This document shows, piece after piece, positions 53,336 through 54,266 of a DNA stretch of 64,000 bases. The notes beneath the pieces are model-generated. The model was not told the origin of the DNA. It searched no databases and was given only the letters and a program-made list of their open reading frames with translations. The stretch comes from Albidovulum aestuarii (lineage in GTDB: Bacteria; Pseudomonadota; Alphaproteobacteria; Rhodobacterales; Rhodobacteraceae). A program made the position numbers and the translations under genes. The stretch lies in assembly GCF_029961185.1 (NCBI RefSeq), contig NZ_JASBQQ010000002.1, positions 558,001-622,000 of the forward strand, given 5' to 3'. Each line of letters opens with the position of its first letter. Position 1 is the first letter of the stretch.

Positions 53336-53568
53336 GTAGGGTGGGGTTCTACCCCACCATTTCCCTCGCCAATGCATGCTGCAGTCCGACCCGGCATGTG
53401 GTGGGTTGAAAACCCCGGGGCTCCACCCGTTTGGCGCTGAAGTCGTGCCACTGGCGCGATTTCCGGGCGCGCCTCACCCCTACTCCCCAAAACAAGCGTA
53501 GGGTGGGTGCCAACCCACCATGCCGACCCGTCAACTCTCGCAACACTGGTGCGTTTCACCCACCCTAC
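53336..53568. repeat. REP cluster downstream of the RAYT gene
   Basis: Three GTAGG-headed palindromes occur in this gap. 53336-53358, plus strand: GTAG then stem GGTGGGGT/ACCCCACC. 53498-53519, plus strand: GTAG then GGTGGGT/ACCCACC. 53548-53568, minus strand: GTAG then GGTGGGT/ACGCACC, imperfect. A partial hairpin GGGTT/AACCC lies at 53403-53415. The 5' GTAG plus imperfect palindrome is the hallmark of REPs associated with tyrosine transposases. The third REP's GTAG contains the RAYT stop codon. Confidence 0.75.
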
Positions 53569-54161
53569 TCCCCGAACGCACCGTCGGTGATGATCCCTGA
53601 CCATTCGGGCTCCGCGATGCCGCGCGCGATATCCCGATGAATCGACGAATACGGCCAATCCACTGCCCGCTCGACGAACCCATGTTTGACGGGGTTGATC
53701 CAGCAATACCGGACATGGGCGGCGTAATCGGCCTCGTCCCGGATATGGTGTTCCCAAAACCGCCGCTGCCATATCGCCTGCTCACGCTTGTTCCGGCGTA
53801 GGCCGGGCTTCAGCCCGGCATATTTTCCGGATTGTACGATGGGTAACTCCGTCGGAAGGGGGGCCGGGCTGAAGCCCGGCCTACCGTCTGCCTGACGGAG
53901 GGACATCGTGAACCGCGCCTTGATCGCACCCCAACGCACCGAATAATCCGCATCATCTTTCGGCAACGTCCAGACACAATGCAAATGATCCGGCATCACC
54001 ACCCATGCGTCGATCCCGAACGGCCTCTCCCTTCTCGTCGCCGCCACCGCCGCCCGGAGTCGCCCGATCTCCCGCACCAAGAGATCCGACCCACGCTCGG
54101 CGAGCGCCACGGTGAAGAAGACGGTTGCGCCGGGCGCATGGGGGCGGAGGTAGCGGGACAT
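53565..54161 (-). CDS. REP-associated tyrosine transposase (RAYT)
   Basis: A 198-residue member of the IS200-like Y1 transposase family. WVVMPDHLHCVWTLP is the HUH metal/His motif (HxH) and RYCWINPVKHGFVERAVDWPYSSIHRD holds the Tyr-bearing C-terminal region. The ATG 54161 has AAGGG 7 nt upstream. Between about residues 90 and 125 the protein has a variable insert (GRPGFSPAP..YAGLKPGLRR) encoded by two inverted REPs. RAYTs are thought to move or maintain REP sequences; here REPs lie inside and just downstream of the gene. It is a single copy with no inverted-repeat IS ends. Confidence 0.9.
   Translation of the reverse strand: MSRYLRPHAPGATVFFTVALAERGSDLLVREIGRLRAAVAATRRERPFGIDAWVVMPDHLHCVWTLPKDDADYSVRWGAIKARFTMSLRQADGRPGFSPAPLPTELPIVQSGKYAGLKPGLRRNKREQAIWQRRFWEHHIRDEADYAAHVRYCWINPVKHGFVERAVDWPYSSIHRDIARGIAEPEWSGIITDGAFGE
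53798..53884. repeat. inverted REP pair (BIME-like) inside the RAYT gene
   Basis: Two 22-bp REPs, identical in sequence and opposite in orientation, at 53798-53819 (plus) and 53863-53884 (minus). Each is GTAGG entering an 8-bp stem GCCGGGCT/AGCCCGGC. They are 43 bp apart and stay in frame, encoding the GRPGFSPAP and YAGLKPGLRR segments of the transposase. Confidence 0.85.
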
Positions 54162-54266
54162 GGCGCACCCTTGCCTGCCCATGGTTAACGGGTGATCAAC
54201 GGGCCGGGTGTCCCTGCCATACGTTTTGCCGACGGAATGCCGACCGTTGGCCGACGCCCTGCCCGC

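Follow-up and report, generated by a model that had tools for sequence, protein, structure and literature searches.

A gene for a REP-associated tyrosine transposase (RAYT, or TnpA-REP) from Albidovulum aestuarii carries two inverted repetitive extragenic palindromic (REP) elements inside its own coding sequence. The gene lies in a stretch of 64,000 nucleotides from this member of the Rhodobacteraceae (contig NZ_JASBQQ010000002.1, positions 558,001 to 622,000), which we refer to in its entirety as the window. In this report, comparative sequence analysis shows that the insert in the gene consists of REPs, that the conservation of their stems and GTAG tags exceeds coding need, and that the type of the embedded REPs tracks that of the REPs flanking the gene. 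The explanation we favor, to which we give about an even chance, is that the pair is kept as two working, GTAG-tagged, cognate hairpins in the RAYT's own gene that are also translated.

An inverted REP pair in the coding sequence of a RAYT gene

The embedded elements, REP1 and REP2, are inverted and 100% complementary, are separated by 43 nt, and both lie within the open frame (Table 1), exactly as a previous reading of the sequence alone (the sequence-only reading) had claimed. They exhibit the GTAG tag, perfect hairpin and inverted pairing of GTAG REPs and of REP doublets forming hairpins (REPINs), and the tag of REP2 creates a rare leucine codon, CTA. When up to three mismatches to the 22-mer were allowed, two matches were found, versus 0.01 expected from shuffles of the window. 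Given the protein and the codon usage of the window, the exact REP codons have a probability of about 10^-4.3 per REP. None of 100,000 codon-resampled loops held the pair, which rules out chance codon usage as its origin.

Genome-wide repetition, which is also characteristic of REPINs, was not found. Pattern searches of the organism's own genome (G000), a scan that the sequence-only reading had proposed, located the exact 22-mer at no place beyond the two embedded copies. This genome contains about 14 REPs of related pattern, four of them within two RAYT genes. Among relatives, the same 22-mer occurs outside RAYT genes in G017 and G007, and only as embedded copies in G006 and G019 (assemblies 89% and 95% complete, respectively).

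The assignment of the host gene to the RAYT family was borne out by matches to NCBIfam model NF047646 (REP_Tyr_transpos; E = 4.6e-50) and to the E. coli TnpA-REP structure 4ER8 (E = 3e-49); a Pfam search at 1e-3 gave no match. The protein has the HuH motif (DHLH), the single tyrosine (in YCWINP) and the TnpA-REP homology of a class 2 Y1 transposase, and the gene has the flanking GTAG REPs of a RAYT, at 45 and 206 nt downstream and at the stop codon. Translation likely starts at position 54161 (MSRYLRP...), which aligns with residue 1 of E. coli TnpA-REP. Based on motifs identified by eye (DHLH), an insertion between alphaC and beta4 (secondary-structure names are those of PMC6006769), its occurrence in Proteobacteria and its likeness to E. 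coli TnpA-REP, the protein can be classified as subclass 2.2-like.

In the 4ER8 alignment, window residues 8-94 correspond to residues 1-87, and 136-205 to 92-161, both ungapped, so that the loop between them has 41 residues versus 4 in E. coli TnpA-REP. An AlphaFold2 model (51 sequences) has a mean predicted local distance difference test score (pLDDT) of 82.6 and a confident core. Numbered from the ATG at 54161, it has a helix at 73-92, approximately 40 low-confidence residues and a strand at 136-139. The loop (pLDDT about 48-58) falls between helix alphaC and strand beta4, and the REP-filled insert is thus predicted to be a disordered, tolerant surface loop. According to PMC6006769, the alphaC-beta4 connection is near the REP-recognizing region in subclasses 2.2 and 2.6.

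Table 1. Positions in the window of the RAYT gene and of its embedded and flanking elements
Feature	Position	Strand	Remarks
RAYT gene (TnpA-REP)	53565..54182	-	open frame, 205 aa
Loop insert, approximate extent	53775..53900	-	window residues 95-135; from the 4ER8 alignment and AlphaFold2 model
REP1, first in gene sense	53863..53884	-	GTAGGCCGGGCTTCAGCCCGGC in coding strand; codons GRPGFSPA, about residues 100-107
REP1-REP2 linker, 43 nt	53820..53862	-	part of conserved linker peptide LP[VI]VxSGRY
REP2	53798..53819	+	same 22-mer GTAGGCCGGGCTTCAGCCCGGC on template strand; codons AGLKPGLR, about residues 122-129
REP, slightly decayed	53548..53568	-	GTAGGGTGGGTGAAACGCACC; its TAG is the RAYT stop codon, by eye
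Flanking REP of other type	53498..53519	+	GTAGGGTGGGTGCCAACCCACC; pattern differs from embedded pair
Flanking REP of other type	53336..53358	+	GTAGGGTGGGGTTCTACCCCACC; pattern differs from embedded pair

Related loci were drawn from the window's genus, class, family and phylum and from named genomes, giving 140 distinct genes in a sample that leans to relatives of the query, and whose counts are not population frequencies. Loop length was taken as the number of residues between the HuH and W motifs, with loops of at most 53 residues called short and those of at least 54 called long. REPs are carried by 2 of 70 short loops and strict REPs by 60 of 70 long loops. By eye, nine of the other ten long loops contain decayed or double-footed REPs and one (L124) shows none, so that 69 of 70 long loops have a REP or its remnant. 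The segment is missing from short-loop relatives without REPs, which agrees with the sequence-only reading's suggestion that the insert marks a past REP insertion. Homologues encoding the same segment from non-REP DNA were sought and not found. In the phylum sample, inserts of this size (judged from matched spans of at least 456 nt over the 146-position model) were not found outside the window's family (by named matches, Rhodobacteraceae/Paracoccaceae in the wide sense); because all long matches belong to this family, the feature is not general in Proteobacteria.

The second RAYT of the genome (C12:508917), which is 69% identical to that of the window, carries a different REP pair, GTAGGTCGGGGTTCACCCCGAC, in the same place, orientation and reading frame. 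Among congeners, the window's pair is shared by L006, L007 and L008, and the kind found in the paralogue is present in L009 and L010; in L014-L018 the loop is short and lacks a REP. At the paralogue locus L005 (1516-2150), inverted longer REPs (GTAGGGTGCGCATTCATTGCGCACC) located downstream are unlike the embedded type, and their tag is the stop codon. Three further observations concern other loci: in L020 (277-385), a RAYT ends out of frame and a single C is missing within its second embedded REP; a Methylomirabilis contig (L148) has two RAYT-like reading frames at one locus; and four copies of GTAGGGCGGGTCTCGACCCGCC, spaced about 920-980 bp apart in G019 (C70:199-3035), suggest a long tandem repeat.

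Conservation at the DNA level and stem covariation

Synonymous sites are about 5-8 times more conserved inside the REPs than beside them. For example, in 23 cassettes with the shared linker LPVVxSGRYAGLKPGLR, the proportion of synonymous differences (pS) is 0.10 in REP2, compared with 0.75 and 0.74 in the linker and tail, respectively. In the four-gene clade that includes the window's gene, the 22-mers are letter-identical, and pS is 0.13 in REP1, 0.06 in REP2 and 0.43-0.59 elsewhere. The linker has a ratio of nonsynonymous to synonymous differences (pN/pS) of 0.22 in related cassettes, from which the inter-REP peptide appears now to be part of the protein and itself under purifying selection.

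The tags impose codons that the same genes otherwise seldom use. In frame, the tag gives the leucine codon CTA in 57 of 62 cases, versus 1.6% of other leucine codons, and the arginine codon AGG in 48 of 53, versus 5.6% of other arginine codons. In L105 (REP1) and L197 (REP2), the DNA is intact but is read in a different frame. The residues encoded at base pair 6-21 change in step (RAGFTPP, RPGFSPA, RSGFTPT), which is not expected from protein need.

Covariation also supports the hairpins. Two REPs are present in 45 genes, and their local stems are paired in 713 of 720 cells, a percentage inflated by the choice of REPs partly by a stem-quality threshold, and changes on both sides of the stem occur at pairs 6-21, 11-16 and 12-15. 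Among 27 distinct 22-mers, 98.1% of cells are paired versus 83.6% after shuffling, and the covariation score is 0.392, reached in none of 500 shuffles, versus 0.106 after shuffling; alignments slid out of register score at most 0.147. The stem threshold does not affect the codon and synonymous-site results in the same way.

REP1 and REP2 could also pair with each other, and the coding-strand RNA folded in isolation is predicted to form this long stem (-63 kcal/mol, z = -8.3). However, 31 of 720 positions of the long stem differ, and nearly all local stems there are still paired; in 24 of the 45 genes REP1 and REP2 differ with local stems retained, and several genes carry only one REP. The long stem is therefore disfavored as the conserved object, which instead appears to be the tagged single REP.

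Flanking REPs and turnover of the loop

The embedded stem type is also a flanking type (REPs within 400 bp) in 36 of 43 genes, a total that chance would put at 12.7 and that no permutation out of 10,000 reached. The window's gene is among the seven exceptions. Its flanks are of GTAGGGTGGG types, with a stem type unlike that of the embedded pair, as is also the case in L098 and L180; these flanking REPs may belong to another RAYT's family. In the sister gene L006, a REP of the embedded type is located 188 nt downstream. The linkers of embedded and flanking pairs are unrelated, which rules out that the embedded pairs were copied whole from REPINs in the flanks. In 60 of 139 related RAYT genes (strict scan), the stop codon is a TAG supplied by a REP, and two genes, L013 and L118, bear an extra REP where the C terminus is encoded (at gene nt 508 and 517, respectively).

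In a tree built from the loop-free core, REP presence changes 23 times, although this tree is weakly resolved and its starred branches force only a few changes. The 24 genes with the T1 cassette do not form a single clade on this tree (approximately unbiased test, p = 0.0044), which, within the limits of a tree resting on few columns, opposes a single old insertion inherited only vertically. These results imply either that the loop is often gained, lost or exchanged, or that an old cassette was lost repeatedly, and the short core leaves the choice undecided.

Possible roles of the embedded REPs

Studied TnpA-REP proteins bind in a strand-specific manner, recognizing only the REP strand as folded single-stranded DNA, and GTAG is required for cutting by the tested group 3 enzyme (PMC8266576). 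Both embedded tags are kept, on opposite strands, and in the mRNA only REP1 would be read as a REP. A pair of DNA recognition sites is the best reading of these elements. In the mechanism we propose, the host of the REPIN is a surface loop that tolerates insertion, and the subclass 2.2-like RAYT to which this loop belongs would recognize the embedded REPs where its own gene is in single-stranded form, at one site per strand. The sites would be kept because of that recognition, so that the enzyme would be permanently linked to its substrate, and they might let the RAYT limit its own gene, in line with the self-control that the sequence-only reading put forward. The effect on the gene could be self-limitation or permanent enzyme-substrate linkage, or the sites could simply result from the cutting and repair of REPs. 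More tentatively, and with somewhat greater expectation of being wrong than right, we suggest that Rhodobacteraceae RAYT genes carry in-frame cognate sites, one per strand, that are selected as part of a device for self-recognition in cis, whether self-limiting or self-linking, and that enzyme specificity and site co-evolve.

Several considerations weigh against our favored explanation. The role it gives the embedded REPs is predicted from sequence, and because the window's flanks are of another type, recognition of the embedded type by this RAYT would be an extrapolation from its relatives. Given the frequent gain and loss of REPs, the function cannot be essential. Moreover, because of relatedness among the sequences, the counts make them look more independent than they are; the partial selection of REPs by stem quality flatters the pairing; and the argument for selection draws partly on the incomplete genomes G006 and G019.

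The main rival is concerted evolution without function, in which the RAYT nicks REPs and subsequent repair or template switching transfers sequence from flanking or sister REPs to the embedded ones, keeping these identical and matched to the flank without selection on the copies in the gene. Such copying would explain why the embedded type follows the flanking type; given the unrelated linkers, homogenization would end at REP boundaries. It would also explain an asymmetric pair in L096 and L107 (GGGCGGG.. then GGCCGGG..) that is identical inside the gene and downstream. However, G000 and, as assembled, G006 and G019 have no other exact copy to serve as a source, and their embedded REPs are still unchanged. 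Copying between REP1 and REP2 alone would permit joint drift, but neither has changed in the clade. These facts favor selection over conversion, although not decisively, and we consider conversion the less likely of the two.

Control of the transcript is improbable: the inverted REPs would form a 22-bp stem in the mRNA and thereby, with or without bound protein, slow translation or decay. The predicted fold, with REP1 paired to REP2, agrees with this idea, but the many genes with differing or single REPs do not, and retention of both tags argues against purely transcript-based control, since REP2 would be an unrecognized complement in mRNA. Slightly more improbable still is tolerated junk, by which REPs often land near RAYT genes and only in-frame insertions into the loop survive, with no maintenance. 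Frequent gain and loss, and REPs used as stop codons or found in C-terminal coding ends, fit such a process; synonymous conservation, covariation and tag codons disfavor it. Coding constraint only, under which the residues are required by the protein and the REP match follows from encoding them, has almost no probability left. Purifying selection on the linker peptide is as this hypothesis predicts, but relatives without the segment exist, REP2 is far more conserved at synonymous sites than the sequence alongside, and simulated codons never yield the pair; we regard it as refuted by these comparisons.

Gene-borne cognate REPs would bear on how RAYTs persist and on how each RAYT stays matched to its REP type. 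If our favored explanation is true, then the sequence of a gene alone would read out RAYT specificity, the stem types CCGGGC, GCGGGG, TCGGGG and GTGGGG would represent a natural series of matched enzyme/site pairs, and one could readily test for action of RAYTs on their own gene.

The embedded pair resembles REPINs, or bacterial interspersed mosaic elements (BIMEs), and their association with E. coli TnpA-REP (4ER8; PMC8266576) in its GTAG tag, hairpin, inverted pairing and REP-flanked RAYT gene; however, the E. coli enzyme has a four-residue loop and no embedded REP. Intragenic GTAG/CGTC REPs (PMC3733652) and Rickettsia palindromic elements (RPEs) are likewise palindromic repeats that entered coding regions in frame; those lie in genes for repair, replication and other functions, but here the gene is that of the REP family's own transposase, and insertions of cognate type recur at one loop. 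In-frame REPs inside tnpA-REP genes were published for subclass 2.4 and, in the available part of that report, called unique to it (Quentin et al. 2018, PMC6006769). That part describes a similar length-variable insert with REPs, and no codon-level, covariation or flank-matching test was found in it; nor were tests of DNA-level maintenance and cognate matching of embedded REPs found in the literature searched. Subclass 2.4 is there characterized by NHxH (NH[IFV]H) and YIxNNP motifs, an insert between beta3 and alphaC, and occurrence mainly in Cyanobacteria and Bacteroidetes. The window's RAYT, from Rhodobacteraceae, has DHLH and YCWINP, is near E. coli TnpA-REP (subclass 2.2), and carries its insert after alphaC, between alphaC and beta4, which rules out membership in subclass 2.4. 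Thus, with in-frame REPs already published for subclass 2.4, the present case is a variant that is new in its subclass, its structural site and its clade.
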